Origin: Prevotella sp.
GTDB taxonomy: Bacteria; Bacteroidota; Bacteroidia; Bacteroidales; Bacteroidaceae
Direction: 5' to 3'
Length of the DNA stretch: 64,000 nt
NCBI GenBank assembly: GCA_017443345.1
Contig: JAFSNR010000116.1
Span: 1-64,000 of the forward strand
The notes beneath the pieces were generated by a model that was not told the origin of the DNA, searched no databases, and saw only the letters and a program-made list of their open reading frames with translations. This document shows, one piece after another, positions 14,840 to 61,540 of this stretch; the stretch's first letter is position 1, and every line of letters starts with the position of its first letter. The translations under genes and the position numbers were made by a program.

Positions 14840-15253
14840 ATGGCATTAACAGCAGTTTTAGAATTTGGCGACAACAACATCAAGCGCTACTCCAAGCAGT
14901 ATATGGTGTCAGATTGTCGATTTGTGTTCGATCGTCCCTATAACGAGTTCCGCCCAGAGGGTGCTGCCCGTTGCGAGCGTCTTGAAGTGTTTGTCATAGC
15001 ACCAGGAAAGAGTGACCTGAGTCTTTTCGAATGGTTCTATAGTCAAGGTGTACAGAACGGGCGGATTGTCATCAGTCTGGCTGTTGAGAAGAAATTTGAT
15101 GAAAACGACACGCAGGTCATCTATTTTGAAGATGCGAAGTGTTTCTCTCTCTCTGAAATCTATGATATCGACAGTTCCCGTCGCCGACTCCTGAAGTTGG
15201 CCATCGGCGCTGACAAAATGACAATTGACGATACATCTTTTATTTGCAGATAA
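14840..15253 (+). CDS. tssD: T6SS tube protein, Hcp/TssD family (module 1)
   Basis: A 137-residue Bacteroidetes-type Hcp that would stack as hexamer rings to form the secreted tube. It aligns well with the protein at 56853: shared stretches are LEFGDN/IQFGDN near the start, RCERLEVFV/RCEKVEVVV, APGKSDLSL/APGKNDLSL and VQNGRIV/VQNGRVV, and a C-terminal SRRR/QRRR motif. There is no signal peptide, as expected. It opens module 1 behind a TACCTTTG promoter and is followed after 3 nt by a second Hcp-like gene. Because this module lacks sheath genes, this Hcp probably serves as an alternative or cargo-bearing tube subunit for the machine encoded at 50-64 kb. Confidence 0.85.
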   Translation: MALTAVLEFGDNNIKRYSKQYMVSDCRFVFDRPYNEFRPEGAARCERLEVFVIAPGKSDLSLFEWFYSQGVQNGRIVISLAVEKKFDENDTQVIYFEDAKCFSLSEIYDIDSSRRRLLKLAIGADKMTIDDTSFICR

Positions 15254-15256
15254 ACT

Positions 15257-15736
15257 ATGGCAACATTACTTTCAAATGAATTAAAGGCTGTGGTGGTGGC
15301 AGATAACTTTCTGGATAACCCCATCAATGTGTTGAAGGAGAACTGTTTGACAGTCCAGCACTTTGATTATCAGTGTGAGCATAAGCGTAATGATTCTGGT
15401 GAGGTCTATGGCGCAACCAAGCCCGTCATCCTCCAGTTCACCATCCGTGTCAACTCTCCGCGTCATGCCAGAACGTTCTACAGACGCTTGATCTCTAATG
15501 AGCATACCTGCTTCTCATTCCTTTTCAATATTACCTATGGTGCTAATGAGCGTATGTCTAACTACGACGATGGAATGGTGGTCGATGGCTATGTCGTTCA
15601 TGTGGAAGAGACCTACTCAACGAAGGTTGATGAGGATGGGGGCGACAAGCAGATGTTGCTCAATGTGACACTTCAGGTTCGCTCGGTCATCTACTTAGGC
15701 CGTGAGAATAATTTCAAAAGTACATTTGTAGAATAA
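15257..15736 (+). CDS. Larger Hcp-like (TssD-related) protein, module 1
   Basis: A 159-residue cytosolic protein that pairs with the product at 57298: both have LKAVVVADNFLDN/LKAILYPENFLEN near the N-terminus, then VQHFDYQ/IQHFAYK, HKRNDSG/VQRNRNDAG, and a C-terminal VRSVIYLG/LSSITYVG strand before a polar tail. In both modules it sits between a smaller Hcp and VgrG. The beta-rich pattern and position suggest an Hcp-related ring or an adaptor joining tube and VgrG spike, similar in position to phage tail-tube initiators. No catalytic motif is visible. Exact role unknown. Confidence 0.65.
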   Translation: MATLLSNELKAVVVADNFLDNPINVLKENCLTVQHFDYQCEHKRNDSGEVYGATKPVILQFTIRVNSPRHARTFYRRLISNEHTCFSFLFNITYGANERMSNYDDGMVVDGYVVHVEETYSTKVDEDGGDKQMLLNVTLQVRSVIYLGRENNFKSTFVE

Positions 15737-15751: not shown

Positions 15752-18700
15752 ATGGCAAAATTAAAACTGGAAATACAAAAAGTTACGTATTTTAGTACGG
15801 GAGAACAAGAAAAAACCGTAAACGGTAGCATATCACTCTATACGGATAAAACAGGTTTCACCGTCAAACTGCCCATAGAGAAGAACTCCTCTACCAAGGA
15901 GACGTATAATCTGAACTTGGTAGATTTCAAGTTCAAGAAGAAGATGTATCAGCCGACAGAAGTCATCGCCAAGATTCAGATTAGTCTGTCCGATGATAAG
16001 AATAAGGAATGGCAATCAGTCAAGAAGGACGTTATTGAAGATCTGTTCTCCAACAAGAAAGTGTCATTGGAATCTATGATGGATAACAACCAAAAATTTA
16101 CCATTGGCGATGACTACTACGTGCAGGATGTGAAGGTTAACTACAAGCCTTCGGCGATGTACGCGACACTGAGTATTTACAGTCTCGACAAGCTGTTGAC
16201 GCTTCATGTCGCCAGTCAGGCATTTGTGTCGAAGAAGTTGAGTGATATCGTGCCCTCGGTATTGAAAGATATCCCGGCCCCCTACGACTCAAATATTTTG
16301 ATTGCAGAACGGTGTGAGACCATGAATGTGCTGAGAGAGGTAGACAATGGAAACGTCAAGGAACATATTTTCCCCTATCTCGTGCAGTATAATGAGAGTA
16401 TCTATGACATGTTGGCGCGTACGGCCAATCGCTGGGGCGAATTCATGTTCTATGAGGACGGTATGTTTACCTTCGGTTACGACAAGAGTCAGAAAGCACA
16501 GACCGTTAGTGGTTGGACGGACATGGAATACTGTGATCTGGAAAGTGGCCTGAAGTCAGATGGAACTGATGACTCATACGATCCAGCGGCTGCTTATGAC
16601 TCTAACATCACGGAGAGTCCGCTGCCGCAAAACGGCGACGTCGTCAGGAACTTGGTGGGTTGCAGTATGGATAACGGTCTGGACGTCTGGATCATGAAGA
16701 AAGTGGCCGCTTTCCTGGGTAATACCAGCAATATCCCCAAATGGGTTGGCAACCAGATTTTCGATGATACATACAATCGTGTCTTGGCAAATAAAAATAG
16801 TGATACCGTTAACAAAGATTTCGATAAAAAATATTTTAAGGATCAGACGGTGAAGGAGAAATATGGCATGCACGAGTTCAAGGATCTCGGTAATAGGTTA
16901 GCCTTCAACCCCTTCACAGAACTCCATACTATTTATAACCAGTCATATTATAGTATGATTCTTGAAAGAGAGCTAAAAGCCTCTCGTGGAGCTGTCCGTA
17001 TTAGCTTTGATACCACTTATCCCAATCTTAAACTGGGCCAGATTATCAATGTCAATGGCGATGAGTTTATTGTCAATGATATTGAGGGCAAGTTTGAAAC
17101 AGTCCTTGATTACGAGGTTAAGAATTATACACAGGTGGTAATTAAAGAAAACATAAAGCTCGTTTTCCAGGTGACTGCCCTCGCTAAAGTCGATGGAAAA
17201 GCGTTCTATCCCACGATGCTGCCTTCAGGCCATATCAGATACTCTGACCCTCAGTTGGCTATCGTGTACGATGCCAATGACCCGCTGAATCAGAATCGTG
17301 TGCGCATCTACTTCCCTTGGCAGAATCTCCCAGAGGATCCGAGTGATGAGCAGGCTGACCCCGTTTCCACTCCCTGGCTTGTCTATGCCACCAGTGCTGC
17401 CAGTAAGTCGAATGGTATCTTCGGCAAGCATTACAAGGGCGACGAGGTGATTGTGAACTTTGCCAATGGCAATGTCGAGAAGCCTTATGTCGTAGGTGGT
17501 CTGGCCATGAAGGGAAACAAAGTGCCTGGTTCATTGGCTGAGCGCGACATTGTGCTGTCTTCACCCGGTGGTCATACGCTCCGTATGGATGATGGCTCAG
17601 GTGCAGGAGCCGGCGCATTCCTTGCTGGAGCCCTTTTCCCAGGTTATGAGCTTGTGACAACCTTCTTCCCCGCCACTTCAGGTGTTGACTTCTTGGGACT
17701 AGATGAAAAGAAATCCAGACAATTGGAAGGCGGTTTTCAGCTGACTGATAAATATGGTGTCTATACCATTTCGGGTTCTACCGACGAGCGTAACGTGTCG
17801 ATTAAGTCTCCATGGGGCGATGTGAGTATCAATGCATTCACGGGCATCTCGATTTCTGCTCCCAATGGCGATATTGAGATTAAAGGAAAGAACGTGAAGA
17901 TCGAGGCAGGCAATAATCTGGAACTTGTTTCTGGTACGAATATCGGCAGTAGCTGGAGACCGCATAAAGATACGTGGAAAGGTGGTATTGCACAGATTGG
18001 TACCGACGTCATGGCTGCTGTCACAAAGAAGTTGGCAGAGAAAGTGGCCACTTTAGTAGACCTGTCCATTCTCAGGTCGATGTTCGAGATTATTGCACGC
18101 CCCATCGAGGGTGCTACGGTGGTGAAGTCGAACCGATACCTGAAGCTGGAAACAGGAGAAGACGAGTGTGCTTATCCTGATGCTGCATACAAGGTTGAAG
18201 AAATGGGCAAAAAGAATTCGACAGCTGAAATTCGTGAAGGCTTGGCCCTGACTGCTGGAGTCTGCGGACTTATTAAAAAGACGAAAGCGATTGCCGCCGA
18301 CATCGACAGTGACTTCAGATCGCGTTATAACGACTGCGTGAAAAAGAATACGAGCTTTACGACGGCTATTGGTAATGCCAGAAGATATGCCAATGGTTAT
18401 AGCACTAATCATGATGTGGCCGTATGTAAGACTGTGACGGAAAATGAAACATTCTGGGCTGCTGGTGAGTACGCACCACTGACTGAGGATAAACTGGAGT
18501 TCTCTGATAACTATAAGGTGGGTTTGGCTGATGTTTCGCCCGATGCTATAGCGTTCTATTGGGATGGTAGGGATACAACCCAACTTTCGGAAGAAGAGAA
18601 GAAACAGCCCATCATTGATGCCCGTATCATGCATCGTCGTAAGATATTGGATGCTGCCAACAGTCTGCGTAAGGCCATCTGCCATATGATGAGTTTCAAG

Positions 18701-19399
18701 GAGTTGGAAGGGACGGCAATCTCCCGTAAGATAGGCTGGAATCGTGGTCATAATCTCATCAAGGATTACAAGAAAATCATGACAGAAGCTTTCTCGAAGG
18801 CCAAATTACCTGACACCTTCTATTACAAGGCGTTTACAGATGCACAAAAACAATTGGTGAATGAGTTGAAGAAGGATGATACGGCGAATGCAAGGCATGC
18901 ATTGCGGCGTATGGCTGCCGTTAACCTGCTTGAGGGATTAGGGTTCCAAGATACATGGCGAACAGACCATGCAACCAAGCCCGCTCCAAGGACAGAGGCT
19001 GCAGCTTTAGCTCAAAATAATGCTTGGGATAATTATGCAAATTCTTTGGCCGCCTTCCCGCCGCTCGAGGCCAAGAAACTGGCAATTTGGAAGGCACTCA
19101 CTGATCCGTTTGCCGAAGCATGGGATGGAATAAATCCTGTTAAGCTCTATAAAGAGCACACGGTATGGGAAAACTCCAAGAGTGGCTCCATCCTGTATAC
19201 CTGTGATGGTAATACTTATACTTTAGGTAAAGAGCTTAGTGTTGTTAATGTAGCTCCACAAGGTGCAGCAGCCCAATATAAAGCTAACGCTGCGGCCGTT
19301 GAAACCAGCAGCATAGACAATCTGGTTGGAAACGACCAAGAGAATCAGGATGTGAAAAAGGCCTTGGATAAAATTAAAGATGCATTAAAAACATTATAA
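15752..19399 (+). CDS. tssI: T6SS spike protein VgrG with long C-terminal extension (module 1)
   Basis: A 1215-residue spike protein. Residues 1-480 correspond to the phage gp27-like base; YLVQYNESIYDMLARTANRWGEF is the VgrG signature near residue 215. Residues 488-600 form the gp5-like OB domain (VRIYFPW, GDEVIVNFANGNVEKPYVVGG). Residues 640-745 hold beta-helix repeats (GDVSINAFTGISISAPNGD). The remaining 470 residues are mostly helical and charged, with a short beta-like tail (ILYTCDGNTYTL). Bacteroidetes VgrGs are commonly near 600 residues, so this is about twice as long and could carry an effector or docking domain. The homologue at 57821 shares the same layout, including the tail. The beta-helix companion gene starts 12 nt downstream. 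Confidence 0.88.
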   Translation: MAKLKLEIQKVTYFSTGEQEKTVNGSISLYTDKTGFTVKLPIEKNSSTKETYNLNLVDFKFKKKMYQPTEVIAKIQISLSDDKNKEWQSVKKDVIEDLFSNKKVSLESMMDNNQKFTIGDDYYVQDVKVNYKPSAMYATLSIYSLDKLLTLHVASQAFVSKKLSDIVPSVLKDIPAPYDSNILIAERCETMNVLREVDNGNVKEHIFPYLVQYNESIYDMLARTANRWGEFMFYEDGMFTFGYDKSQKAQTVSGWTDMEYCDLESGLKSDGTDDSYDPAAAYDSNITESPLPQNGDVVRNLVGCSMDNGLDVWIMKKVAAFLGNTSNIPKWVGNQIFDDTYNRVLANKNSDTVNKDFDKKYFKDQTVKEKYGMHEFKDLGNRLAFNPFTELHTIYNQSYYSMILERELKASRGAVRISFDTTYPNLKLGQIINVNGDEFIVNDIEGKFETVLDYEVKNYTQVVIKENIKLVFQVTALAKVDGKAFYPTMLPSGHIRYSDPQLAIVYDANDPLNQNRVRIYFPWQNLPEDPSDEQADPVSTPWLVYATSAASKSNGIFGKHYKGDEVIVNFANGNVEKPYVVGGLAMKGNKVPGSLAERDIVLSSPGGHTLRMDDGSGAGAGAFLAGALFPGYELVTTFFPATSGVDFLGLDEKKSRQLEGGFQLTDKYGVYTISGSTDERNVSIKSPWGDVSINAFTGISISAPNGDIEIKGKNVKIEAGNNLELVSGTNIGSSWRPHKDTWKGGIAQIGTDVMAAVTKKLAEKVATLVDLSILRSMFEIIARPIEGATVVKSNRYLKLETGEDECAYPDAAYKVEEMGKKNSTAEIREGLALTAGVCGLIKKTKAIAADIDSDFRSRYNDCVKKNTSFTTAIGNARRYANGYSTNHDVAVCKTVTENETFWAAGEYAPLTEDKLEFSDNYKVGLADVSPDAIAFYWDGRDTTQLSEEEKKQPIIDARIMHRRKILDAANSLRKAICHMMSFKELEGTAISRKIGWNRGHNLIKDYKKIMTEAFSKAKLPDTFYYKAFTDAQKQLVNELKKDDTANARHALRRMAAVNLLEGLGFQDTWRTDHATKPAPRTEAAALAQNNAWDNYANSLAAFPPLEAKKLAIWKALTDPFAEAWDGINPVKLYKEHTVWENSKSGSILYTCDGNTYTLGKELSVVNVAPQGAAAQYKANAAAVETSSIDNLVGNDQENQDVKKALDKIKDALKTL

Positions 19400-19410
19400 G
19401 TTGAAGAGCT

Positions 19411-21378
19411 ATGGATTATATATATGGTGAATGGAAGAAGCTGTTGGATAGCTTTCAGCAGTGTGTAGAAAAGGATCTGGAAGAGATTCACAAGCAGAAA
19501 GCGGAAGTACAGCAGATCAAGACTGACATCTTCAGTCGTATGGACAGTGGGCTGTTCTATCGCGACGATGACCGCATCGTTATCTCTGCTCCTGAGATTG
19601 TGATTGGCAATGTCGACAAGAGTGGTGAGCTGCAGGGCGGTATTGGCCATGTGATTATCAAAGGCAGCGATGTGGATATGGAAGGCGTAGGTCAGTCTGG
19701 ACAGATTGTCAGCCGCGCCCCCAGCATCCGTCAGATTGCCGTTGATCCTGGTGTGGATGGCTTGGAGAATGTGGTATGCGACACGTCGGAGGTCATCTCC
19801 CAGGCCACCAGTATCGTGCTTCACAGCAGCGATTCTGAGGGAGCCTTCTCTCAGAACGGTCTGTCGGCAGGCAAGGGTGGCATGTGGATTCACGCCGATA
19901 ACAACCTGAATATGGAGGCTGCCGTTACCAACGATGTTCGTAAGGTAGGCATCGAGAGTCAGGAGAAGGTTCTGACAGAGCAGGCTACCAACCTGAAGAA
20001 GGTCATGGATGATCAGAAGAAAGCTGTCGACGACTACTTCAAGAAGATGACCTCGCTGTTGGAGAAACAGGAAAAACTGAACGTGGGTAAAGACTATCTG
20101 GCACGTCTGAGCATGGACGAACTCGACGATATACACGCCGAGATGAACAGACTGATGCCTTCACTTTATCACACGACGATTGGCTTTATCCGTACAGTGG
20201 CTCAGTTGGCTGAGGTTAACCGTGTGAAGAAGGCCCTGGAGACCGAGAAGAAGGCTCTGAAGACAGGCGACGATTTCAAGAAAAAGACCACAGGCGCCAC
20301 CATGACCATTAAGGCTGAGGCTATCGATGTCGCAACTGTTGATGGCGATGGCAATCTCCATACAAACTCAGAGGCTGGCATCAGGATCCGTACGCCGAGA
20401 CTCAATACGAGTATGTCGGACGATACAGGCAAACTGATTGAAAACGGAGGATTCTCTGTGAATTCACAGAACATTACACTGTCGACGGTCAATGCTTCGG
20501 CTGATGGTAAGGAACTGCCTGTAGTAGGCAATATTGACTTGCGTTCGAAGACCATCAATATGGAAGCCGTTGACTATCAGCACGACGACAAGGGTATGAA
20601 GGAGAAGGAGCTGACCAAGGACAGCAAGATCAAGATCACGGCCCAGACCGTTGAAGTGGCTACTACGAATCCGAAGAATATCGAGCGCGACGACAAGGGC
20701 AAGATTACCAAGGGCGAGTATACCGCCGAGGGTGATGTCATCATCAAGTCGAAGACCATCTCGATGGAAACACTCGATTACGAGGTGAAGGATGGCAAGC
20801 TGGCCACAAAGGCCCTGACGAAGGGCAGTAAGATTGCTGTACGTTCTGAGAAGATGGACTTCCTGGCAGCCGATGCCGAGGGTAAGTCTACGGGTAGCAT
20901 CAATATGAATGCCAAGGCTGTAGCCGTGAAGTCGATGGATGTCGATAAGGAGAAGCTCACCGACGACAAGTTGGCTGCAGGCAGCACGATGACGCTCGTC
21001 AGCGAAAAGATGTTCGTGGGTGCGAAGTCGAAGGATATCAAGAGCAAGAAGATTCAGGCGATGTCCGAGGAAATCGGCGCCTTTGCCGATAAGACGTTGG
21101 AGATCCAGCAGGGCGATGGCAAGGCTGTCGTACAGCTCGATGGCGGCAACGCTTCAGTGGGTGGCAGCAAGACCCAGATCTACGGCGATACAACCATCAA
21201 TGCCAAGGCTGAGGTCAAGGGTGATCTCAAGGCACCGAAAGGACAGTTCGACAATCTGGAGGCGAAGTCGTCGTTCAAGTCGAGCAACATCAGCGACGGT
21301 ATCGCCGTTCCTGGTGCAGCAGGCGGTGGCAGCCTGAGTGCGAAGCTGAAGACGGAGGATGCTCCGAAGGAGGGGTGA
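19411..21378 (+). CDS. VgrG-linked beta-helical repeat protein (module 1)
   Basis: A 655-residue protein I cannot assign to a named family. Residues 1-45 form a coiled coil (EWKKLLDSF...EIHKQKAEVQQIKTDIFSR). Residues 50-190 contain strand-rich turns such as RIVISAPEIVIGNVDKSG. A second helical stretch covers about 190-290. From 300 on there are repeated strands of the type KSKTINMEAVDY and KSKTISMETLDY, alternating with KGSKIAVRSEKMDFL, like the VgrG needle. The tail NISDGIAVPGA near 625 is shared with the homologue at 61544. It lies directly after VgrG in both modules. A second spike, a spike cap or a spike-bound effector carrier all fit. No PAAR motif is seen. Confidence 0.7.
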   Translation: MDYIYGEWKKLLDSFQQCVEKDLEEIHKQKAEVQQIKTDIFSRMDSGLFYRDDDRIVISAPEIVIGNVDKSGELQGGIGHVIIKGSDVDMEGVGQSGQIVSRAPSIRQIAVDPGVDGLENVVCDTSEVISQATSIVLHSSDSEGAFSQNGLSAGKGGMWIHADNNLNMEAAVTNDVRKVGIESQEKVLTEQATNLKKVMDDQKKAVDDYFKKMTSLLEKQEKLNVGKDYLARLSMDELDDIHAEMNRLMPSLYHTTIGFIRTVAQLAEVNRVKKALETEKKALKTGDDFKKKTTGATMTIKAEAIDVATVDGDGNLHTNSEAGIRIRTPRLNTSMSDDTGKLIENGGFSVNSQNITLSTVNASADGKELPVVGNIDLRSKTINMEAVDYQHDDKGMKEKELTKDSKIKITAQTVEVATTNPKNIERDDKGKITKGEYTAEGDVIIKSKTISMETLDYEVKDGKLATKALTKGSKIAVRSEKMDFLAADAEGKSTGSINMNAKAVAVKSMDVDKEKLTDDKLAAGSTMTLVSEKMFVGAKSKDIKSKKIQAMSEEIGAFADKTLEIQQGDGKAVVQLDGGNASVGGSKTQIYGDTTINAKAEVKGDLKAPKGQFDNLEAKSSFKSSNISDGIAVPGAAGGGSLSAKLKTEDAPKEG

Positions 21379-21380
21379 TG

Positions 21381-21420
21381 GTTTAGAGTTTATAGTTTAG
21401 AGTTTATAGTTTATAGTTGA
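21381..21420 (+). repeat. Heptamer repeat inside T6SS module 1
   Basis: Five to six GTTTAGA/GTTTATA units fill the gap between the beta-helix gene and the RRF-like gene. Confidence 0.75.
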
Positions 21421-21429
21421 AATAAAGTT

Positions 21430-22146
21430 ATGAGAAGAGCAACTATTATGGAATACGACAAGCTGGCTGATAAGCTGTCGAAATATGTGGGTCAGATGAA
21501 CTTCCGTTTCATGGATATCTGTGTGAAGGCTGAGCCTGGCGCATTGCTGAATGTGCAGGTCTTTGTTGAAGGAGAGTTCCTGAAGTTGGAAGACTGTGCA
21601 AAGATTGCCAAGCCCGATGATTTCAACTTCATGTTGATACCGCAGTATGAAGAGGACTTAGCCCCCATTCAGAGAGCCGTTTTCCAGGTTCATCCGGAGT
21701 TCAAGATGAGAGTCGATACCTTGCAGGTCGACACGGTGGATAATAATGGAAATAAGCAGAATCACGATGTGAAATACATCCACGCGACGATGCCAGAGGT
21801 CGACGATGACCGCTATGATGTGCTGAAAGATGCTGTCAAGGTCGTCTACGACGAGTGCAAGGCCTATATGGAGACTGCCAATAACACCTCAAAGGTTAAG
21901 TTTGCCGCCTTGGCTCCTGGTGAGATGCCTGAAGATTTGGAAAATCTGGATGAAGCGCTGAAAAAACTGAACAAAGATTGGAATGGTCAGCGCGACAAGC
22001 TGTATGAGAAGAAACTGAAGGAAATAGAGGAGGCCCACAATAAGTGGCTTGCCGAGAATAATGAGCGAAATATGATTCGTCAGGAAGAGGAAGCTGCTCG
22101 TAATGAGGAAGCAGTCAGATCCATGCGTCTTGATGCCGATGAATAA
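21430..22146 (+). CDS. T6SS-linked protein resembling the ribosome recycling factor fold
   Basis: A 238-residue cytosolic-type protein with a homologue at 63541 in module 2; the two align from the first residue (MRRATIMEYDKLADKL / MKKAIEILIRELDSKL), which supports this start. By eye the order of segments follows ribosome recycling factor: a helical start, a strand block with AKPDDFNFMLIPQYEEDLAPIQRA (RRF has a V-P-E-x-R-T-L-x-I-x-P-W-D block here), TMPEVDDDRYDVLKDAVK (RRF: PPLTEERR), then a long helix and a charged C-terminal helix. The two arginines that RRF needs for ribosome binding are replaced by acidic and amide residues. It ends with about 60 residues of charged helix. Fold similarity is inference; role unknown. 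Confidence 0.6.
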   Translation: MRRATIMEYDKLADKLSKYVGQMNFRFMDICVKAEPGALLNVQVFVEGEFLKLEDCAKIAKPDDFNFMLIPQYEEDLAPIQRAVFQVHPEFKMRVDTLQVDTVDNNGNKQNHDVKYIHATMPEVDDDRYDVLKDAVKVVYDECKAYMETANNTSKVKFAALAPGEMPEDLENLDEALKKLNKDWNGQRDKLYEKKLKEIEEAHNKWLAENNERNMIRQEEEAARNEEAVRSMRLDADE

Positions 22147-22165
22147 TTCCTAAACTCTTGTAAAG

Positions 22166-23563: not shown

Positions 23564-23576
23564 TAAACTGTTAGAT

Positions 23577-24446: not shown

Positions 24447-24473
24447 AACGGCGGTAGTCTGCTGGAAAATGAG

Positions 24474-24481
24474 TAATTTTG
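24474..24481 (+). promoter_or_regulatory. -7 element (TAATTTTG) before the MurU-like gene
   Basis: Consensus match only 4 nt upstream of the GTG at 24486, which favours translation from the ATG at 24504 or a leaderless transcript. Confidence 0.4.
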
Positions 24482-24485
24482 CGGC

Positions 24486-25208: not shown

Positions 25209-25224
25209 AGTTTATAGTTTATAG
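25195..25224 (+). repeat. Heptamer repeat between the MurU-like gene and guaA
   Basis: GTTTATA/GTTTAAA units that include the stop codon of the upstream gene and fill the gap to guaA. Confidence 0.7.
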
Positions 25225-25226
25225 AT

Positions 25227-50781: not shown

Positions 50782-53322
50782 ATGAACGCAAAACTTAAAG
50801 ACATTGCTAATTCCTTTGCTGAGGAATATTGTAGTGACGCCATCTATCCGGCGCATTTGTTCAAGGCCGTTCTTCATAAGGAAATAGGTCTCGTACATTT
50901 TATTGAGTCAGAACTGGACAAGGATTATTTCTATCTCCAGGACTGGGCCGACGTGCAGATGCAGTTGGCTCCGCGTGCCGTCCGTCCGATGCGTGACTTA
51001 GAGTACAGTTCCGAGGCACAGGCCGTGATCGACGAGGCTGAGAACTATCAGGTGAAGTTCGACCTCGAGGAGTGTACCGACGTCTGCGTGCTGGCAGCCT
51101 TGGTGACTCCGGGCGTGGGCTTCTCGTTCGACCAGTTGAAGACCCTGCCGCTGACACCATCCGACATCAGCGCGAAGATGGGTGGCGGCGTGAACGTGGA
51201 GGCTCCCTATATGGAGGGTGCCGAGTTGACGAAGAAGACCCCGGCCGCTGGTGGCAAGGGCAGTCTGGCCAAGTACTGCGTGGACAAGACCGCCATCGCA
51301 CGTGCCGGCAACCTGGACAACGTCATCGGATTTGAGAAGGAAATCGCCATCATTTACGAGATACTCGGTCGTAAGACCAAGGCCAACCTGCTGATTACGG
51401 GTGAGGCCGGTGTCGGTAAGACCTCACTGTTGAACGGTTTCGTTCGCGAGTTGGCTGCCGACCGTGTGCCGGGCTTCCTGAGTGGGGCTGTGGCTTATGA
51501 GCTCGATACCGCTGCCCTCGGTGGCGACGCCCAGTACAAGGGTGAGGTAGAGGACCGCTTCAAGAACGTGATTACCGAAGTGGAGAACCTGCCGAATGCC
51601 GTGCTCATCATCGAGTCGATCGACAAGCTGTTCGACAAGCAGGGCTCGCTGTTCGGCGCTTCTTCTATCCTGAAGAACGAGCTGTCGAAGGGTCGTCTGC
51701 AGCTGCTCGCCACCTCGAGCATCGACGGTTTCACGAAGAACATCGAGACCGACAAGGAGATGACCTCCAAGCTGGAGAAGATCACCGTCGAGGAGCCCAC
51801 CGCCGACCTGGCGCTGCGCATCCTGAAGGGTGCCATCCCCGCCTATGAGGAGTATCACGGACTGAAGGTCGACGAGACGGTGATGGACGAGGCTATCCGT
51901 CTGGCCAAGCGCTATCTGACGGAGAAGTCGCTGCCCGACTCAGCCTTCGACCTGATCGACCGCACGATGGCTCAGGTGAAGACGATGAACGACCTGACCG
52001 GCAATATCATCGACGAGCTGAAGGGCAAGCTGGAGGCCATCAAGGCCTCGGCTGAGGGTAAGGACAAGGCCGACGAAGGCCTGATGAAGGAGCTCGACTG
52101 GCTCAACTACGAGCTATTCAATAAGGTGAGCTGCATCCTGCTGGCCGGTGTCGACAGCGATACCGACTTCAGTAAGATCGCCACCATCCAGGAGCGTATC
52201 GACTTCCTGGCCGGTATCCTCGACAAGCTGACCGAGCTGGCTGCTGAGCAGCGCACCGACCTGAAGACCGACGACCTGAGTGCCGTTGTGGCCAAGCAGA
52301 CCGGTATACCTCTCGGTAAGGTGCAGACGAAGGAGCGCGACCGCCTGATGGGTGCTGAAGAGACCCTGAAGAAGCGCGTCGTTGGTCAGGATCACGCCGT
52401 GAAGAAGGTGCTCGATGCCGTTTACGAGGCCCGTTCAGGTCTGAGCAAGAAGGGTCAGCCGATGGGTTCGTTCTTCTTCCTCGGTCCGACCGGTACTGGT
52501 AAGACGGAGTTGGCCAAGGCGCTGGCTACGTTCCTCTTCGGTGACGAGAGTGCGCTGATCCGCTTCGACATGTCGGAGTTCAAGGAGGAGCACTCGGTGG
52601 CTCTGCTCTACGGAGCACCTCCGGGATACGTTGGTTACGAGGAGGGTGGTCTCTTGGTGAACAAGATCCGCCAGAACCCCTACGCCGTCGTACTGTTCGA
52701 CGAGATCGAGAAGGCTCACAAGAGCGTGTTCGACCTGTTCCTGCAGATCCTCGACGAGGGTAAGCTCCACGACCGTCTGGGCCGTGTGGGTGACTTCTCG
52801 AACGCCCTCATCCTCTTCACCTCGAACATCGGTGCACAGACCATCGTGGAGAAGTTCAACAGCGGTGTCATCCCCGAGAACAACGAGCTGATGGACATCA
52901 TGCAGGGCTACTTCCGTCCTGAGTTCCTGGCCCGTCTGACCGAGATCGTGCCGTTCTCACCAATCACCGACAAGACCGTGACGAAGATCTTCGACATCCA
53001 CTTGAAGGGACTGCTGAAACTGCTTGAGGAGCAGAATATTGAGCTGACGCTGACGCCCGAGGCTCGTCAGGCCATCGCCCTGCGCGGTTACAACCAGCAG
53101 TATGGTGCCCGTCCCGTTATCGGTATCATCCGCAAGGAGCTTCGTCACCCGATCTCCAAGATGATGATTGCCGGCAAGGTGAAGGCAGGCGACAAGATTC
53201 AGGTGGAGGTCGACAAGGACGCCCAGCCCGTCTTCATCGTCAACGGTGAGCGTGCCGAGAATCCCGAGGCCAAGAAGGCCGAGGCCCCAGCTGAGGAGAA
53301 AAAGGCAGCAAAGAAAAAATAA
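50782..53322 (+). CDS. tssH: T6SS sheath-disassembly ATPase ClpV/TssH
   Basis: An 846-residue AAA+ unfoldase of the Hsp100 group. Residues 1-150 are a Clp-N-like domain. The first ATPase domain has Walker A GEAGVGKTS near 206 and Walker B VLIIESIDK. The second has GPTGTGKTELAK near 570, AVVLFDEIEKAH as Walker B and the ClpB-type DMSEFKEEHSVALLYGAPPGYVG-like pore region. The C-terminal tail is rich in Ala, Glu and Lys. ClpV recycles contracted TssB/TssC sheaths. The neighbouring tssB and tssC genes decide for ClpV over ClpB. It opens module 2, with tssB 49 nt downstream. Confidence 0.93.
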   Translation: MNAKLKDIANSFAEEYCSDAIYPAHLFKAVLHKEIGLVHFIESELDKDYFYLQDWADVQMQLAPRAVRPMRDLEYSSEAQAVIDEAENYQVKFDLEECTDVCVLAALVTPGVGFSFDQLKTLPLTPSDISAKMGGGVNVEAPYMEGAELTKKTPAAGGKGSLAKYCVDKTAIARAGNLDNVIGFEKEIAIIYEILGRKTKANLLITGEAGVGKTSLLNGFVRELAADRVPGFLSGAVAYELDTAALGGDAQYKGEVEDRFKNVITEVENLPNAVLIIESIDKLFDKQGSLFGASSILKNELSKGRLQLLATSSIDGFTKNIETDKEMTSKLEKITVEEPTADLALRILKGAIPAYEEYHGLKVDETVMDEAIRLAKRYLTEKSLPDSAFDLIDRTMAQVKTMNDLTGNIIDELKGKLEAIKASAEGKDKADEGLMKELDWLNYELFNKVSCILLAGVDSDTDFSKIATIQERIDFLAGILDKLTELAAEQRTDLKTDDLSAVVAKQTGIPLGKVQTKERDRLMGAEETLKKRVVGQDHAVKKVLDAVYEARSGLSKKGQPMGSFFFLGPTGTGKTELAKALATFLFGDESALIRFDMSEFKEEHSVALLYGAPPGYVGYEEGGLLVNKIRQNPYAVVLFDEIEKAHKSVFDLFLQILDEGKLHDRLGRVGDFSNALILFTSNIGAQTIVEKFNSGVIPENNELMDIMQGYFRPEFLARLTEIVPFSPITDKTVTKIFDIHLKGLLKLLEEQNIELTLTPEARQAIALRGYNQQYGARPVIGIIRKELRHPISKMMIAGKVKAGDKIQVEVDKDAQPVFIVNGERAENPEAKKAEAPAEEKKAAKKK

Positions 53323-54481: not shown

Positions 54482-55846
54482 ATGGCAGATACAGAAATGC
54501 AGAAAGCCCAGGCCGCCGGTCAGGCCAGTGCCGAGCTTCAGGAAAAAGAAGGTGGTAAAAAAGATTTGCTCAAAGCGTTTGGTGGCTTCAACGCCATCCG
54601 TGGTTTCATGCCCGACGCAGACAATATGAACCCAGCCCGCAAGGCTGCTAAGGACGTGTTCCTGCAGGACAAGCGCTTCAAGGACAAGCGTGAGGGTCTG
54701 AAGAAGGAGATCGCCCGCTGGCTCGAGCTGCTGTCAGACGACAGTATCGATAGTGCAACAGGTTTCGCCGACGCTTGTAAGAAGGACGAGCAGAAGTATA
54801 CGGAAGTGCTGAAGCAGGGTATCACAGACGCCCTCTACGCTACCCAGAACCTGGAGCGCAGCTACCGTCAGCTCGACTCATTCTTCAAGACTTGCGGTAC
54901 CGACAAGGTGAAGAACCTCCGTATCATCAACGTCCTCAAGGAGGACATCGCCGATGCCGACTCAGGCTTCGCTGGTGAGGTGGAGAACATCCTGCGCAAC
55001 GGTTTCGACCGTCTGAGCCTGAAGGATGCCTACAGCCTCGTTTGTGTGCCCGGTGCCGTGTTCACCGACAAGGTCGACCTGCTCTCATGGGCCAAGATGG
55101 CATTCAAGTACAAGGTGATGCTGCTGACCGACCACGCCGACGAGTACTCGTTCGACGACCTGCAGGCTAACACCGAGGGCTATCGCGACAGCGACCAGTG
55201 CCTGATGAACGTTGTGATGACCGCCAACTGGATCGTTGGCCGTGAGGCTGAGAAGCTGTCAAGCGACGAGGAGGACCAGAAGGCCTTCTATATCGCACCT
55301 GCTGCTGCCCTCTGCGGTAAGCTCTACGACGAGACAGCCAACATGGCTCAGGGTGCCGGTGGTAAGAAGTACGGTACACTCGACGGTGTGAAGGGTGTGA
55401 AGAGCGACCTGCTGAAGTCGGAGATCGCAGCCCTGATGGACAACCAGGTGATTCCTATGGTTTACTCTGAGGGCCGTGTGATGGCATTCAACAACACCAC
55501 GCTCTACAACGGTGACCTCGACGCCATGAAGGAGTATCCTATAGTCCGCGTATTCGACTGGGTGAAGAAGGTGCTGATGAACTTCGTTCACGAGGTGGCA
55601 CTGGAGAACTGGGATCCGTTCAACAGCCCGAAGAACCTGAAGAGCAAGATCCAGGAGTTCCTGAACCAGTACAAGGGTTATGGCAACCTGTTCCAGAACT
55701 ACGAGATCGGCGAGCCCCGTCAGGATCCTGTGACCAAGCAGATCACTTGCGACATCACGCTGACACCGTTCTATGCAGCCAAGAACTTCGTGATCAAGGT
55801 TGCTGCCGACAAGAAGGCCAAGGAGGCCGCTATGGCAAGTGCATAA
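54482..55846 (+). CDS. tssC: T6SS sheath large subunit TssC
   Basis: A 454-residue protein of the Bacteroidetes TssC type. RGFMPDADNMNPARKAAKDV near residue 42, LLSWAKMAFKYKVMLLTDHA near 200 and the conserved KVLMNFVHEVALENWDPF segment near 365 mark the family; TLTPFYAAKNFVIKV at the end is the sheath handshake strand. It pairs with TssB. It is followed by two Hcp genes on the same strand, 53 nt further on, so sheath and tube are made together. Confidence 0.9.
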   Translation: MADTEMQKAQAAGQASAELQEKEGGKKDLLKAFGGFNAIRGFMPDADNMNPARKAAKDVFLQDKRFKDKREGLKKEIARWLELLSDDSIDSATGFADACKKDEQKYTEVLKQGITDALYATQNLERSYRQLDSFFKTCGTDKVKNLRIINVLKEDIADADSGFAGEVENILRNGFDRLSLKDAYSLVCVPGAVFTDKVDLLSWAKMAFKYKVMLLTDHADEYSFDDLQANTEGYRDSDQCLMNVVMTANWIVGREAEKLSSDEEDQKAFYIAPAAALCGKLYDETANMAQGAGGKKYGTLDGVKGVKSDLLKSEIAALMDNQVIPMVYSEGRVMAFNNTTLYNGDLDAMKEYPIVRVFDWVKKVLMNFVHEVALENWDPFNSPKNLKSKIQEFLNQYKGYGNLFQNYEIGEPRQDPVTKQITCDITLTPFYAAKNFVIKVAADKKAKEAAMASA

Positions 55847-55899: not shown

Positions 55900-56292
55900 A
55901 TGGCAAAAACTCCAGTTGTAATGAAGATCGCAGACTACAAGGACCGCGAAGTTCAGATGGTATCTTACGAGTTTGATCAGGAGACCGACCGTGAGGGACA
56001 GATGACCGGTATTCCCCGTTTCCAGATGCTCCGCGTTCGTGTAAAGGCTCTTAACGATGGTACTCCCGAGCTGATGGCTTGGATGTGCGACCGCTTCCTG
56101 AAGAAGGACGGCTCTATCGAGTTCCTTGAGACCAAGACCCTGAAGGTGATGAAGGAAATCAAGTTTACCGGTGCTTACTGCGTAGACTTCGAGGAGAGAT
56201 GGGAGGACAAGCTCGGTCACTATGAGGAGATCCTCATCTCTTGTCAGAACATCGAGGTAGGCTCAGTGAAGTTCGAGAACGAGTGGGCTTAG
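55900..56292 (+). CDS. tssD: T6SS tube protein Hcp/TssD, first of a tandem pair
   Basis: A 130-residue Bacteroidetes Hcp. Shared with the next gene are the VSYEFDQETDREGQMTG / VDYKFNQATDTEGQVAG strand and loop, RVKALNDGTPEL / RVKALNDGNPEL, and a TGAYCVDFEE..GHYEEILISCQ / TGCYCVHYKE..EHYEEILLSCQ block. These form the beta-barrel of the tube ring. No extra domain is attached. Codon use is rich in highly used codons, as expected for an abundant structural protein. Confidence 0.88.
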   Translation: MAKTPVVMKIADYKDREVQMVSYEFDQETDREGQMTGIPRFQMLRVRVKALNDGTPELMAWMCDRFLKKDGSIEFLETKTLKVMKEIKFTGAYCVDFEERWEDKLGHYEEILISCQNIEVGSVKFENEWA

Positions 56293-56356
56293 TTCTTAGA
56301 CAGAGTAACAGAATAATAGAATTTTAAAAATTTTAAGAAAAGAAAGGAAATAGAAT

Positions 56357-56755
56357 ATGGCAGATAATGTAACCCCGGTTCTGTTGACCGTTAAAGATTT
56401 CGCACCCCGTGAAGTGCTGTTGGTAGACTATAAGTTCAACCAGGCAACTGATACAGAAGGTCAGGTAGCAGGTATCGTTCGTGGTGGTCAGATCACCATT
56501 CGCGTGAAGGCCCTCAACGATGGTAATCCTGAGTTGCTCAACTGGATGATCAATCCCGCTGATCCTCGTGACATCACCGTAGATTTCCAGAACACCATCG
56601 ACGGCTCAGCCATGAAGCAGTTGAAGGGAACTGGCTGCTACTGCGTACACTACAAGGAGTACTGGGCAGACGGCGAGGAGCACTATGAGGAGATCCTGCT
56701 CTCTTGCCAGAAGCTCGAGAACGGACCTGTAGCTTATGAGAACCCCTGGAAGTAA
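56357..56755 (+). CDS. tssD: T6SS tube protein Hcp/TssD, second of a tandem pair
   Basis: A 132-residue Hcp paralogue of the preceding gene, about half identical by eye. It has no extra domain. Two similar but not identical copies next to each other suggest mixed tubes or cargo-specific rings. A weak hairpin region follows (56770-56815) before the next Hcp-like gene. Confidence 0.87.
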   Translation: MADNVTPVLLTVKDFAPREVLLVDYKFNQATDTEGQVAGIVRGGQITIRVKALNDGNPELLNWMINPADPRDITVDFQNTIDGSAMKQLKGTGCYCVHYKEYWADGEEHYEEILLSCQKLENGPVAYENPWK

Positions 56756-56852
56756 ACAATCCAGTTGACTCTATCCCCATCTGGCCCCGTCGCTGGCGAC
56801 TGGGTCAGATGGGACTTATCGTATATAATAATTAATAAGGTTTAGGATTTAT

Positions 56853-57281
56853 ATGGCATTTTTATCGCATATACAGTTTGGCGACAATAGTACAGGGAAC
56901 TATTCAAGAGGATATGCCGTGGTGGACTGCCACCTGCATTTCATGAGGCACTACAACCACTTCAGACCCGACACCGACGCAAGGTGTGAGAAGGTGGAAG
57001 TGGTTGTGGAGGCACCAGGCAAGAACGACCTGAGTCTTCAGGAATGGTATCTCAACAACGAGGTGCAAAACGGACGCGTTGTCTTCGACCTCCAGTCAAA
57101 GACCTCTTCCGACACGATGCAGAAGCTCGTTGAGTTCGAGGGTGCCTACTGCTATTCCTTCGAGGAGGAGTACCATATAAATATCCAGCGCAGACGCTAT
57201 TACCGGTTGTCGATCGTTGCCGAGAAGATAACCGTCAACGAAATAGCATTCAAGAACCTTTATGCCTCGGACGAGGCATAG
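56853..57281 (+). CDS. tssD: T6SS Hcp/TssD-family protein (module 2 copy of the 14840 gene)
   Basis: A 142-residue protein that matches the first gene of module 1 along its whole length (see shared GDN, RCEK, APGKNDLSL, VQNGRVV and QRRR motifs). It is more distant from the 55900/56357 pair. It is the first of the conserved five-gene order: this Hcp, larger Hcp-like protein, VgrG, beta-helix protein, RRF-like protein. Its pairing with a specific VgrG in both modules suggests it links tube to spike or carries module-specific cargo. Confidence 0.83.
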   Translation: MAFLSHIQFGDNSTGNYSRGYAVVDCHLHFMRHYNHFRPDTDARCEKVEVVVEAPGKNDLSLQEWYLNNEVQNGRVVFDLQSKTSSDTMQKLVEFEGAYCYSFEEEYHINIQRRRYYRLSIVAEKITVNEIAFKNLYASDEA

Positions 57282-57820: not shown

Positions 57821-60800
57821 ATGGCAGAAGTCAAATTATATATCTATTCAGGCACTAGTCAGGGGAATCCCCTTAAGTTGAACGCAGAATCATCTGTGTC
57901 CCGGGATATTACAACAAATGATGCAGATGGGACGACAAAAGAAGTCACCTATACTTATCCGTTGATGCTGAATAAGCTGACATACCAGAAGAAGATGTAT
58001 GAACCCTGTATGATCCATGCAGTGGTCGAAGTGGGTATAGGTAAGAAGAAAGAAGGAAGCACCGAAACCAGTCTGGGGAGTCTGCCGACCCACCGTGACA
58101 TGGCAGCCTTCTTCTTCAAGATGAAGGTGAAGTATTGTATGGACAATACAACGGTTGCATTGAATTATCAGGTATTCAATGTCCGTACCTTCCGTAAGAA
58201 AGACAATACCTCGGGCGTCACTGTGGAACTGGATATTTTCAGTGAGGACAAGCTGCTGACCTTGGAGAAGTATTCCAAGGCTTTTAGCAGAAAGAGACTT
58301 GGCGCACAGATCTTTGCTGATGAAGTTGGCCAATACGACCTGAGCGCCACACCTGTGGTCAACTTGCAGTTGTTGTCATATGATGTGTCAGGTTCCAGTT
58401 CAAAAGAAGAGTTCCGCCAACCCTATCTGGTACAGTATAATGAGTCGTTCTACGATTTCCTGAAACGCACGGCCAACCGTTGCGGTGAGTTCCTCTATTA
58501 CGAGAACGGCCATTTGAACTTAGGCGTAACGATGAACCGTCTGGACCAAAAGGATTCCGCGACGGATTATGGCACTGTCGCCCAGCAACTCCATTATGAT
58601 ACGCTGTATGCCTTTGGTGGATTCAAAAATGATCAGGAAGCCTCGGATTATGCCTATAACTATATGGGAGATACCCATTTTTCGAGCAGTGACAATCAGT
58701 ATAATGACCCTCTGGCCACTGATGACTATTTAGGTGAGATCGGTACGAGCTACACTAGCTACGGTGATGAGGTGGATGATATGAGTAAGCGTGCCATGGC
58801 CCAGCTTCTTCTAGCACTGTCGGGTACGTCGTTCTCGGAGATTGTATCCAACTTCCTGACTGAACTGACATTTAACAGGATAGAGGCGGCTTACTCGGCG
58901 AGGAACAAGAATGATGACAGCAAGGAGGTCAACATCACGCCTTGGGAAACTAAGGTAAAGGACAAAGACGGAAAAGATACAGACAATTTGATCGATAAAG
59001 ACCAGTGGAGTTCTGACAAGGAGTCGTTGAACCAGTTCGGTACCTATGGTTCCAAGAAATCTGCTATTTCTGAAAGTACCATCAACCTCAACGCCCTTTT
59101 CTACCAGCAGGTGCGAAAGGCAGAGAAGAAGACGGGTGAGGAAGCTTTGTGGATGGACTTCGGTTCAGACTTCCAGGATCTGAAGTTAGGTGATGTCATC
59201 AAGGTTGATGGCGTGAGTTTCCTGGTCATTCAAGTCTCGGGTGCTCATGAATACACCAATGCGAAAACGACTATAGCCCAGCAGCAGGTGGTGGCCATCC
59301 CGCTCTATACCGTTCCCTCAGAGTCTGACACCAGTATATCGACCGTACTCCCCATCCCCCAGGCACTGCCGGGAATGACCGTCAGGGAGTCTCAGCCCCA
59401 GATCGCCTTCGTCACTGACGTGATTGACCCGATGAAGATCGGACGTGTACGTATCCGGTTCACTTGGCAGAAGGAAGACGGTGATGCCTCGCCGTGGATT
59501 CGCGTGTCATTGCCCTTTGCCACTGATGGCGGTGGCGTGAAGTTCAAACCCGAGAAGGACGACGAGGTGCTGGTGAGCTTTGAGGAAGGCAATGTGGAAC
59601 GTCCCTATGTCTCTGGCTACTTGCTGTCAGAGCGCAGCAATGAGTCGTGGGGCGCCTTGTCCGACCGTGCCATCGTGTCGAAGAATGGTCACAGCATCAT
59701 CTTTGAGGACAAGCCTGGCTCAGACTTCTTTTACAGTTCAATATGGCCGTTTGCCTCTGTTTTTAAGAGCTTCTTCCCTACCTCCGTATGGCCTGACACC
59801 CTTGACAAGAAAGCGGGCACGTTGGCTCTTTCTGGTGGTATCAAGTTGCGTGACCCTTATGGACTTTACGAGATCTCGGCATCGTCGGATGCCCGTTCCG
59901 TGACCATTCAGTCGGCTCTGGGTGATGTGACGCTGAATGCCTTTACGGGTATCAATATCTCCGCACCTAACGGCAATATCTCCATCTCGGGAAAGAACGT
60001 GGAGATCTCTGCCAGCAACAATGTCAAGATCACTTCAGGTAAAGGTCTCAATGACCGTTTCTTCCCCGGCATTAATTCTACGGGCAGTTTTTGGAAGGAT
60101 TTGGGCATACGTGCCGCAGATACGAGTATTGCAGCCGTTGTCGATACATTGGGATCTGTTGCCAACAAGTTTGTAGATAGTATCCTCGACGTGTCGCTTA
60201 TCAGGACTGTCATAGAGATTGTGCTCAGGCCGATTGACGGAACGACGACCATCAAGTCGCACACGTTTATCCAGATGGAGGCAGGCAAGGGTTCTGTAGA
60301 ATTCCCGAAGAGCGCATTGAAGAAAGACCCTGGGGATCCGACGACGTTTACGGATATCCGTGCGATCCTTCAGAGTATTCCCGCAACGGTGAATGAAAAG
60401 GTTACTGCCATCAATAACGTCATCACTGCCCTCAAGGCAGATATTGATGCCTATAACGCCATTTCGGGCGAAGGCGATGACCTGGTGAACAAGCAGGAAC
60501 AGTGTATCAAGTTCGCCGACATCAAGACTAAGGGCTGTCAGGCCACGGCCGGCACGCTGCAGGATACTGACGCAGTCTTCACCTGGACGGATGCATTAAA
60601 AGATGTGGAGCTTTTAAAAGAGGAAGACGAGGTGATTCAGAACTTGATTAAAACGTCAGTTTCGGTGGAAATAACAGAAAAGCCCAAATCTACAGATGAC
60701 TGCTATAAGGATAATGCCAAACCCAAAAGAAATTTCCAAAATGATTTGGCAGAATGGGAAAAATATGCAAATTATTATTTGACAGAACTAAACAAGCCAA

Positions 60801-61540
60801 AGAACGAGGAGAACCGGGTGAGGGCCGACAAGCGCAAGACCCTTGTGGATTGTGCCAATAATCTGGCAAAGTCTTTCTCAGACCTCTATAACGTATTCGA
60901 TGGTATCAACAACCTTGCGAATCTGAAGGACTGTCCGAATACTGTCACTCAGACAAACAAGGACAAGGGTCTTGAGGGCGTGAAGAAATACAAGGATTTT
61001 GTCACAGCTACCGACAGTGCCTTGTTTGATAAACTTTATAAGCATGATGTGGCAAAAGATACGGATCTCACCCAGCCGTTAGGTGATGAGGTTAAGAAAC
61101 GCTGGAGCAGGAAGGCCATCCATCACTTCATGAGCCAGGTGTGGAATGATGTCAATGCCGAGTTTAAGGATTCGATTGCCATGGTGGCTCCTTCATTGCT
61201 GGGAGATGTGATGGATGATGCACTGTGGAAGGAATCTGTTGGTGGATGGTTTAACGATGTGCAGCCGGTAACTGACGCGAAGTCTCAGATTGGCGGGTTT
61301 ACCAAGGATAAATTCGTAGCGATTAGAGATCACTGGAAAGAAGAATACATTGATCCCTGGATAGATGCGACTGTCAACCGGCGTCGTTGGCAAACGGGCG
61401 TTCAGGGTAAGATCCTCCTGTCAGACTCTCCTGGAACGACCATCAGATTTGAGAAAGACGGTTCAACCTATCAACAGGTGAATGCACTGGCTTCCAATAA
61501 GTATATCTATGATTTGAGAGATTATCTAAAAACATTCTAA
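57821..61540 (+). CDS. tssI: T6SS spike protein VgrG with long C-terminal extension (module 2)
   Basis: A 1239-residue VgrG, same layout as the one at 15752. Residues 1-500 are the gp27-like base (YLVQYNESFYDFLKRTANRCGEF near 205). Residues 510-605 are the gp5-like OB domain (GRVRIRFTWQKEDGDASPW, DEVLVSFEEGNVERPYVSGY). Residues 650-745 are beta-helix (SALGDVTLNAFTGINISAPN). The last 490 residues are helical and charged, then a short beta-like tail (KILLSDSPGTTIRFEKDGS). The helical regions of the two VgrGs differ far more than the base and needle, while the tails stay alike, which fits a variable effector or docking segment between fixed ends. The next gene follows after 3 nt. Confidence 0.88.
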   Translation: MAEVKLYIYSGTSQGNPLKLNAESSVSRDITTNDADGTTKEVTYTYPLMLNKLTYQKKMYEPCMIHAVVEVGIGKKKEGSTETSLGSLPTHRDMAAFFFKMKVKYCMDNTTVALNYQVFNVRTFRKKDNTSGVTVELDIFSEDKLLTLEKYSKAFSRKRLGAQIFADEVGQYDLSATPVVNLQLLSYDVSGSSSKEEFRQPYLVQYNESFYDFLKRTANRCGEFLYYENGHLNLGVTMNRLDQKDSATDYGTVAQQLHYDTLYAFGGFKNDQEASDYAYNYMGDTHFSSSDNQYNDPLATDDYLGEIGTSYTSYGDEVDDMSKRAMAQLLLALSGTSFSEIVSNFLTELTFNRIEAAYSARNKNDDSKEVNITPWETKVKDKDGKDTDNLIDKDQWSSDKESLNQFGTYGSKKSAISESTINLNALFYQQVRKAEKKTGEEALWMDFGSDFQDLKLGDVIKVDGVSFLVIQVSGAHEYTNAKTTIAQQQVVAIPLYTVPSESDTSISTVLPIPQALPGMTVRESQPQIAFVTDVIDPMKIGRVRIRFTWQKEDGDASPWIRVSLPFATDGGGVKFKPEKDDEVLVSFEEGNVERPYVSGYLLSERSNESWGALSDRAIVSKNGHSIIFEDKPGSDFFYSSIWPFASVFKSFFPTSVWPDTLDKKAGTLALSGGIKLRDPYGLYEISASSDARSVTIQSALGDVTLNAFTGINISAPNGNISISGKNVEISASNNVKITSGKGLNDRFFPGINSTGSFWKDLGIRAADTSIAAVVDTLGSVANKFVDSILDVSLIRTVIEIVLRPIDGTTTIKSHTFIQMEAGKGSVEFPKSALKKDPGDPTTFTDIRAILQSIPATVNEKVTAINNVITALKADIDAYNAISGEGDDLVNKQEQCIKFADIKTKGCQATAGTLQDTDAVFTWTDALKDVELLKEEDEVIQNLIKTSVSVEITEKPKSTDDCYKDNAKPKRNFQNDLAEWEKYANYYLTELNKPKNEENRVRADKRKTLVDCANNLAKSFSDLYNVFDGINNLANLKDCPNTVTQTNKDKGLEGVKKYKDFVTATDSALFDKLYKHDVAKDTDLTQPLGDEVKKRWSRKAIHHFMSQVWNDVNAEFKDSIAMVAPSLLGDVMDDALWKESVGGWFNDVQPVTDAKSQIGGFTKDKFVAIRDHWKEEYIDPWIDATVNRRRWQTGVQGKILLSDSPGTTIRFEKDGSTYQQVNALASNKYIYDLRDYLKTF

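Follow-up and report, generated by a model that had tools for sequence, protein, structure and literature searches.

Ribosome recycling factor (RRF; frr, PF01765) is a near-universal translation factor, and its residues Arg28, Arg129 and Arg132 (E. coli) contact the ribosome. Type VI secretion system (T6SS) spikes of other phyla depend on matched accessories, among which DUF2169 chaperones hold VgrG-DUF4150 spikes ready (available excerpt of PMC11883445). Tvp complexes support VgrG-PAAR spike assembly, and in the available portion of that report TvpAB and TvpB were never detected as secreted (PMC13373197). According to partial source texts, DUF4123, DUF1795 (Eag) and PRK06147 adaptors are encoded beside vgrG, load cargo and are followed by effectors. 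For Bacteroidales, the T6SS architectures GA1–GA3 have been described (PMC4714493), and for Bacteroidota the membrane complex TssNQOPR (PMC10781749).

The window analysed here, the whole stretch of 64,000 nucleotides of Prevotella sp. DNA, encodes an RRF-like protein (RRFL) beside T6SS spike genes, each time directly after a long gene that we call BH. Compared with RRF, RRFL lacks the ribosome arginines, is strongly acidic and T6SS-linked, occurs in up to ten copies and carries a helix extension of about 33 residues with a C-terminal tail. As with DUF2169 and TvpA, its gene encodes an accessory tied to a single type of vgrG spike (PMC11883445 and PMC13373197, as excerpted). DUF2169, however, has its own fold and DUF4150/PIPY as partner in the excerpt, whereas RRFL has no Pfam match to DUF2169 and its orphan modules mostly lack a PAAR-type gene. 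RRFL shares a place beside spike genes with the DUF4123, DUF1795 and PRK06147 adaptors as partially described; in contrast to these, no recognisable effector follows it 3', and Pfam does not place it in any such family. The present cluster matches the Pfam families of Bacteroidota TssC and TssD. Compared with the available parts of the GA1–GA3 and TssNQOPR accounts, the spike here has BH and RRFL, and a term search found neither "recycling factor" nor "ThiF" in the two main texts. We found no report of an RRF fold in a secretion system and no open-access paper containing both "ribosome recycling factor" and "VgrG". Among the matches listed for "ribosome recycling factor" with "type VI secretion", the mentions look incidental in the visible text of the open-access papers.

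Two spike modules in the window

All genes placed below by window coordinates with a strand lie on the + strand. The orphan module, which with its flanking genes occupies window 13159–26771, comprises TssD/Hcp (14840..15253, +; PF17642, E 5.4e-10), a 159-aa protein between TssD and VgrG (15257..15736, +), a VgrG of 1215 aa with a long C-terminal extension (15752..19399, +; PF04717, E 7.9e-10), BH, a long spike-like protein of 655 aa with a conserved C-terminal tail (19411..21378, +), and RRFL-1, the predicted RRF-fold protein of 238 aa (21430..22146, +). The C-terminal tail of RRFL-1 (residues 223–238; 22096..22143, +) ends in SMRLDADE at the end of extended helix 3. The 159-aa protein has no Pfam match, and its relatives occupy the same place in many loci. 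One flank gene of the module has sub-cut-off matches to RapZ and AmgK, and on the other flank are two genes that we take to encode a nucleotidyltransferase and GuaA. Relatives of the flank genes recur in several Prevotella loci.

The main T6SS cluster contains a ClpB/ClpV-like AAA+ ATPase in the TssH position (50782..53322, +; PF07724, PF10431), the sheath protein TssC (54482..55846, +; PF17541, E 1e-99), three TssD/Hcp genes (55900..57281, +; PF17642), a VgrG of 1239 aa (57821..61540, +; PF04717, E 1.8e-17) and a BH of 661 aa with 42% identity to that of the orphan module (61544..63529, +). RRFL-2 (63541..64000, +; PF01765) runs past the window end; whole on the contig it has 237 aa (L030:3542-4255, where L030 is the window's contig). 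The gene at window 53853 was considered as TssB and rejected, Pfam pointing to an AraC-type regulator. Neighbouring genes were labelled by similarity to seed sequences with Pfam checks on a few; the labels "TssF" and "X278" rest on position, and the TssK-like gene of the main cluster scored 18.4 bits in Pfam, under the cut-off. Before the main cluster, a VapE-like/primase protein (window 47598-49265; PF05272, PF08707) suggests a mobile element remnant.

The preliminary description had placed an RRF-like protein directly after the spike genes in both modules. Open reading frame positions and PF01765 matches agree, the proteins at 21430 and 63541 each lying directly 3' of BH, itself after vgrG.

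RRF homology, ribosome contacts and distribution

In a Pfam-A scan at E ≤ 1, RRFL-1 matched PF01765 (E 1.5e-7; 31.9 bits, above the cut-off of 29.7), residues 33–199 aligning to profile positions 12–163 of 164. The only other matches were pre-PUA_NIP7 (0.1) and DUF5677 (0.17), with none to DUF2169, DUF4123 or DUF1795. RRFL-2 matched PF01765 at E 6.5e-6 on the window piece and with 42.9 bits on the whole protein. Searching the whole genome (4.16 Mb, 204 contigs) with PF01765 returned one normal RRF (222 bits), eight further places that exceed the cut-off and one RRFL that does not, along with three weak, unrelated matches (E 0.09–0.17). BLAST with RRFL-1 located ten RRFL places in the same genome. 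Eight of these exceed the Pfam cut-off, the copy on contig C195 falls below it (23.7 bits), and contig C100 carries a copy that is absent from the matches at E ≤ 10; since the Pfam search misses this last copy, the family extends beyond the PF01765 model. At E ≤ 0.01 the model reaches 54/58 family members (alignment A2 has 58 rows, alignment A4 51).

The reverse search, with the 58-row RRFL profile, retrieved solved RRFs first (Thermus RRF, E 1e-13, profile 7–197), and all 20 matches under E 0.02 were RRFs. HHalign of 91 RRFL against 27 RRFs gave 98.6% probability over 184 columns; identity with the genome's own RRF amounts to only 32 of 184 aligned positions. The predicted structure of RRFL-1 is a two-domain, L-shaped RRF fold, with RRF matches to both domains in a structure search; these include 1ise, an Arg132Gly mutant RRF. 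The single-chain model forms a compact RRF body, with pLDDT of 73 for residues 221–230 and 58 for residues 231–238. Profile and structure comparisons thereby uphold the likeness to RRF that had been proposed by eye. Chance or composition as its source is excluded by the agreement of profile, reverse profile, profile-profile and structure searches. Judged by these profiles and the model, RRFL is a member of the RRF superfamily, predicted fold included. Many of its conserved positions fall in segments 30–36, 88–91 and 121–128, together with Lys195, Glu198 and Ile199 of helix 3. Segments 30–36 and 121–128 are presumably the links between the two RRF domains. The concentration of conserved positions at this elbow (p 8e-11) is descriptive, segment 88–91 having been picked after seeing the data.

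The preliminary description had also read the ribosome-contacting arginines as lost, and an alignment of 91 distinct RRFL with 27 genuine RRFs from Bacteroidales confirms this. Residues were numbered as in E. coli via an equal-length Vibrio RRF; in residue, neighbour, tail and tree counts the RRFL-2 window piece was removed as a duplicate of L030. The Arg28 site is deleted in 91/91 RRFL, with the same gap in the HHalign alignment, and is R in 27/27 RRFs. At the Arg129 site, D or E stands in 77/91 RRFL and R in 0/91, against R in 27/27 RRFs; R at the Arg132 site is found in 9/91 versus 27/27. Kept are the Arg109 site, the first hinge arginine (91/91), lysine at the Arg31 site (89/91; R or K in RRFs) and the helix-3 lysine (91/91). 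Mean net charge is -18.4 for RRFL versus -2.1 for RRFs, and -15.1 versus -2.1 for the RRF core alone. TIGR00496, the frr equivalog, gave no match to RRFL-1 at E ≤ 1 and reached 11/58 RRFL at E ≤ 0.01 (best 2.5e-5). The genome also keeps one normal RRF with Arg28, Arg129 and Arg132. RRFL is thus a member of the RRF superfamily that fails these sequence tests for a functional RRF. Automatic annotation may, if this is right, label such proteins as RRF.

Scanning GTDB genome contigs gave 111 pattern matches, of which 89 were confirmed and 79 RRFL loci kept. By title, all 79 come from Bacteroidia or from groups within Bacteroidales. Prevotella and Prevotellaceae predominate, many of them from rumen, and further loci are in Xylanibacter ruminicola (the rumen isolate D31d, L057, among them), Bacteroidaceae, Parabacteroides, Muribaculaceae and Paludibacteraceae; to judge by the titles, metagenome assemblies make up the majority of the named genomes. 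In a phylum sample of 395 genomes, RRFL was found at E ≤ 1e-18 only in the window's own genome, as were, among the matches listed, scores above 60 bits in an order sample of 393 genomes. Weaker matches (E ≤ 1e-5) in 332 genomes of the order sample fit normal RRF, as checked for 13. Thirteen Bacteroidales genomes gave two hits apiece, which might have been a second, more distant RRFL. This was rejected: both hits are adjacent within a single frame of about 190–220 aa, and we therefore take them as split hits of normal RRF. Phage origin was likewise rejected on viral-contig, phage-record and fold searches. No RRFL relative was confirmed among 61 pattern-matching stretches of viral contigs, tblastn with RRFL matched none of 50,697 phage records and none of 72,556 plasmid records, no viral fold matched at E ≤ 1e-3, and PHROGs matches were weak. 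As for a defence system, PADLOC had no match for the three proteins scanned.

Pairing of RRFL with its spike

The ten RRFL places of the genome pair one to one by position with ten BH places. BH is the immediate upstream neighbour of 77 of the 91 distinct RRFL (median gap 35 bp, n=77); a DUF4280 PAAR-like gene takes this place in 4 and a PEGA-type gene in 10. A genus sample of 299 genomes held RRFL in 24, BH in 25 and TssD in 46, in a comparison that counts presence and not copies, few candidates being scored per genome. All 24 RRFL genomes carry BH, and 24/25 BH genomes carry RRFL. These counts and those of the own genome are fair, whereas the 88/88 BH with RRFL in the locus set is biased, its loci having been chosen by RRFL. 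TssD was found in 23/24 RRFL genomes (Fisher p 1.3e-20, kinship ignored); in the remaining one, G478, RRFL lies beside BH on a 4.6-kb contig. The only BH genome with no RRFL hit, G487, also has no TssD hit, and there a phosphatase gene comes immediately after BH, on a contig of 6.4 kb (L163, G487:C94). Since 23/46 TssD genomes are without RRFL, the protein marks one spike type and not T6SS generally. T6SS stretches of 20 kb each from two other genomes of the genus contain DUF4280-like genes and VgrGs of up to 1041 and 732 aa, with no BH and no RRFL.

Main clusters run, with variations, Hcp, Hcp-like, VgrG, BH, (DUF4280, PEGA), RRFL, ThiF-like, a 260–280-aa protein, TssK-like and gp25/TssE. Past the window end, the ThiF/E1-like gene of this cluster lies at L030:7068-8198 (PF00899, E 2e-51). 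In main clusters this gene and then the 260–280-aa protein precede the TssK-like gene, and it stands right after RRFL in 9 loci; by similarity labels the arrangement also occurs in L070, L080-L083, L086, L092, L095, L097, L107, L110, L118, L121, L125 and L127. An E1-like enzyme is a constant neighbour of the T6SS in these clusters. Orphan modules consist of (TssD, the 159-aa protein,) VgrG, BH and RRFL, often with STAS and SpoIIE-phosphatase genes, and RRFL is often the last gene of their common core. Two Paludibacteraceae loci (L124, L128) combine one BH-RRFL pair with three VgrG genes. Inspection by eye of the genes 3' of RRFL revealed no effector-immunity pair, the unlabelled ones looking like signal-peptide or housekeeping proteins; effectors may lie at other loci or inside VgrG. 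RRFL adjoins one vgrG type and is cognate with it, as expected of an adaptor gene. From these gene comparisons it has the genetic profile of a matched spike accessory, being present once per spike here, co-diverging with it and absent from the other spike types examined.

Complete triples came from 73 of the 91 modules. RRFL distances in these correlated with those of the VgrG core (r 0.88), the VgrG extension (0.86) and BH (0.72), with partial correlations of 0.45, 0.37 and 0.30, respectively. For pairs with RRFL distance below 0.65, Spearman coefficients were 0.59, 0.68 and 0.67 in the same order. Mirror-tree comparison as a pointer to one partner was rejected, VgrG being favoured over all pairs and not among closer pairs. 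RRFL diverges together with its spike, no single partner being picked out, and this may reflect co-inheritance of neighbouring genes.

All 66 pieces of the VgrG C-terminal extension (window 17987-19396, about 470 aa) could be aligned with one another (alignment A3). Five columns are invariant, R308 and W347 of the piece among them, and the extension therefore does not resemble a swapped toxin domain. A profile search of the PDB with the extension gave chance-level hits to helical proteins (best E 0.1). The BH model (pLDDT 81, pTM 0.57) is beta-rich with a helical hairpin at about 175–291. The structure matches listed for it cover almost only this hairpin, and the best profile hit, to helical proteins, had E 0.0015. 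BH ends (window 21310-21375 and others) consist of a linker rich in glycine and a peptide that hardly varies from SLSAKLKTEDAPKE, seen in most of 40 printed tails of 86 and in 38/86 by a narrow pattern. From its sequence, this looks like a docking peptide of its own.

The C-terminal tail and possible roles of RRFL

Many RRFL end in S-M-[RK]-[LM] followed by acidic residues. In 18 modules RRFL is without this tail; there, A-x-N-D-V-V-x-x-[SQ]-M-[KR]-[LM], the last position mostly followed by G-Q, and acidic residues are found on a longer STAS protein. These tagged STAS proteins have 135–155 aa in 17/18 (the eighteenth, of 248 aa, was called from an early start), compared with about 100 aa for untagged ones, and are encoded next after RRFL in 10 modules and before VgrG in 8. 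Across 91 modules, the tail is on RRFL in 51, on STAS in 18, on both in 0 and on neither in 22, by a pattern fixed after looking at tails and made to admit both BH and RRFL tails; a looser one would put L069 as both. A weight matrix built from STAS tails scored at least 5 bits on 13/91 RRFL tails (best 32.1; the other 78 below). None of 904 other proteins, 89 BH, 21 short STAS proteins or shuffled RRFL tails reached this score. That the BH tail (SLSAKLKTEDAP) is the same peptide as the RRFL tail was not supported by the matrix test (p 0.31) and was dropped.

S-M-[KR]-[LM]-G-Q occurs four times in the DNA of the own genome, twice at the ends of STAS proteins beside RRFL and twice in frames of 27–28 aa. 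One RRFL of this genome (L023:9638-10279) ends early, at 213 aa, without tail, and the tail is encoded by the STAS gene that comes next. On the RRFL tree, tagged STAS needs 6 changes, at least 4 of them on well-supported branches, with L064 and L072 scored as without tagged STAS though cut before the STAS place. An independent-pair sign test of the tail swap gave the expected direction in each differing pair and, with few pairs, was not significant. As judged from the motifs, the RRFL tail type is related to the tail of long STAS proteins, the peptide standing on one or the other where it occurs. Orphan modules at L022:9341-11606, L023:7381-9618, L027:8954-10903 and L166 are flanked by STAS and SpoIIE-type phosphatases, some with HATPase; one of these phosphatases has Cache/HAMP sensor domains (Pfam). 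By gene content, these flanks appear to be a partner-switching set.

We favour, at somewhat better than even confidence, a reading in which RRFL is an RRF relative that left translation and now serves as cognate adaptor or chaperone of one specialised Bacteroidales T6SS spike type. Before firing, while still in the cytoplasm, the cognate VgrG-BH spike would be gripped by the L-shaped body of RRFL, with the elbow segments, as the best conserved part, providing the grip. The helix-3 extension would hold out the C-terminal peptide, which may dock the loaded spike to a common part of the T6SS machine, or to common cargo. Where the peptide is on STAS, RRFL and STAS would act as one complex, which the products of the adjacent genes for SpoIIE-type phosphatases and, in some modules, HATPase could gate. 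More tentatively, and with more doubt than belief, we suggest that the spike modules of this T6SS are labelled with an address. The label would be a short peptide at the C terminus, of the approximate form A-A-[HN]-N-[DE]-x-[VA]-x-x-[SQ]-M-[KR]-[LM]-x-x-[DE], required once per module and movable between the RRF-fold adaptor and the STAS protein. Within the same doubtful proposal, loading of individual spikes might be switched by partner-switching phosphorylation, because SpoIIE-type phosphatase and sometimes HATPase kinase-like genes lie near the STAS form.

Several of the same observations would suit a structural spike part fired together with VgrG and BH, such as a collar or clamp at the junction of these two: there is one RRFL per VgrG-BH pair in the own genome, 24/25 BH genomes have it, its co-divergence is strongest overall with VgrG, and no separate effector was recognised 3' of it. 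We consider such a part rather unlikely, however, as the single-chain model is a compact RRF body and not a needle element, 14/91 RRFL follow a DUF4280 or PEGA-type gene instead of BH, and the tail can sit on a STAS protein, which we take to be a cytoplasmic regulator type. The frequent position of RRFL at the end of the orphan-module core and its ten diverse copies in one genome could also point to cargo, that is, an effector with a non-ribosomal target. This seems improbable given that no adjacent immunity candidate was recognised by eye and that conservation is highest around the RRF elbow, with no apparent active-site pattern.

The preliminary description had offered adaptor, chaperone or ribosome-targeting effector as roles for a reused RRF fold. 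Reuse of the fold in spike modules stands, and adaptor or chaperone fits best of the three, with one RRFL per VgrG-BH pair, co-divergence and no effector-immunity pair by eye. The ribosome-targeting role fits poorly with the lost contacts and the net charge of -18.4 versus -2.1. An injected RRF mimic that jams the ribosomes of rivals could draw on the RRF fold of both domains, the Arg109 site kept in 91/91 and the Arg31-site lysine in 89/91, but the very acidic protein has the Arg28 site deleted, the Arg129 site mostly acidic and Arg132 mostly lost, and we give this reading very little credence. Hardly any is left for RRFL remaining in translation, for example by tuning re-initiation within the spike operon. 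The genes are tightly spaced, and RRF has been studied in translational coupling (PMC9955659, available in part, where a term search turned up nothing on these residues); against this, the ribosome contacts are lost and RRFL is tied to spike modules and not to other operons.

If the adaptor or chaperone reading is right, RRFL would add a new fold to T6SS spike accessories and show a way for a genome that encodes ten different spikes to provide every one of them with a matching loader. The portable RRFL/STAS tail is the least expected result, and its pattern offers a testable handle on spike selection. Should the address-label proposal also be true, a near-universal translation factor would have become the loader, under the control of a switch, for a contractile weapon.
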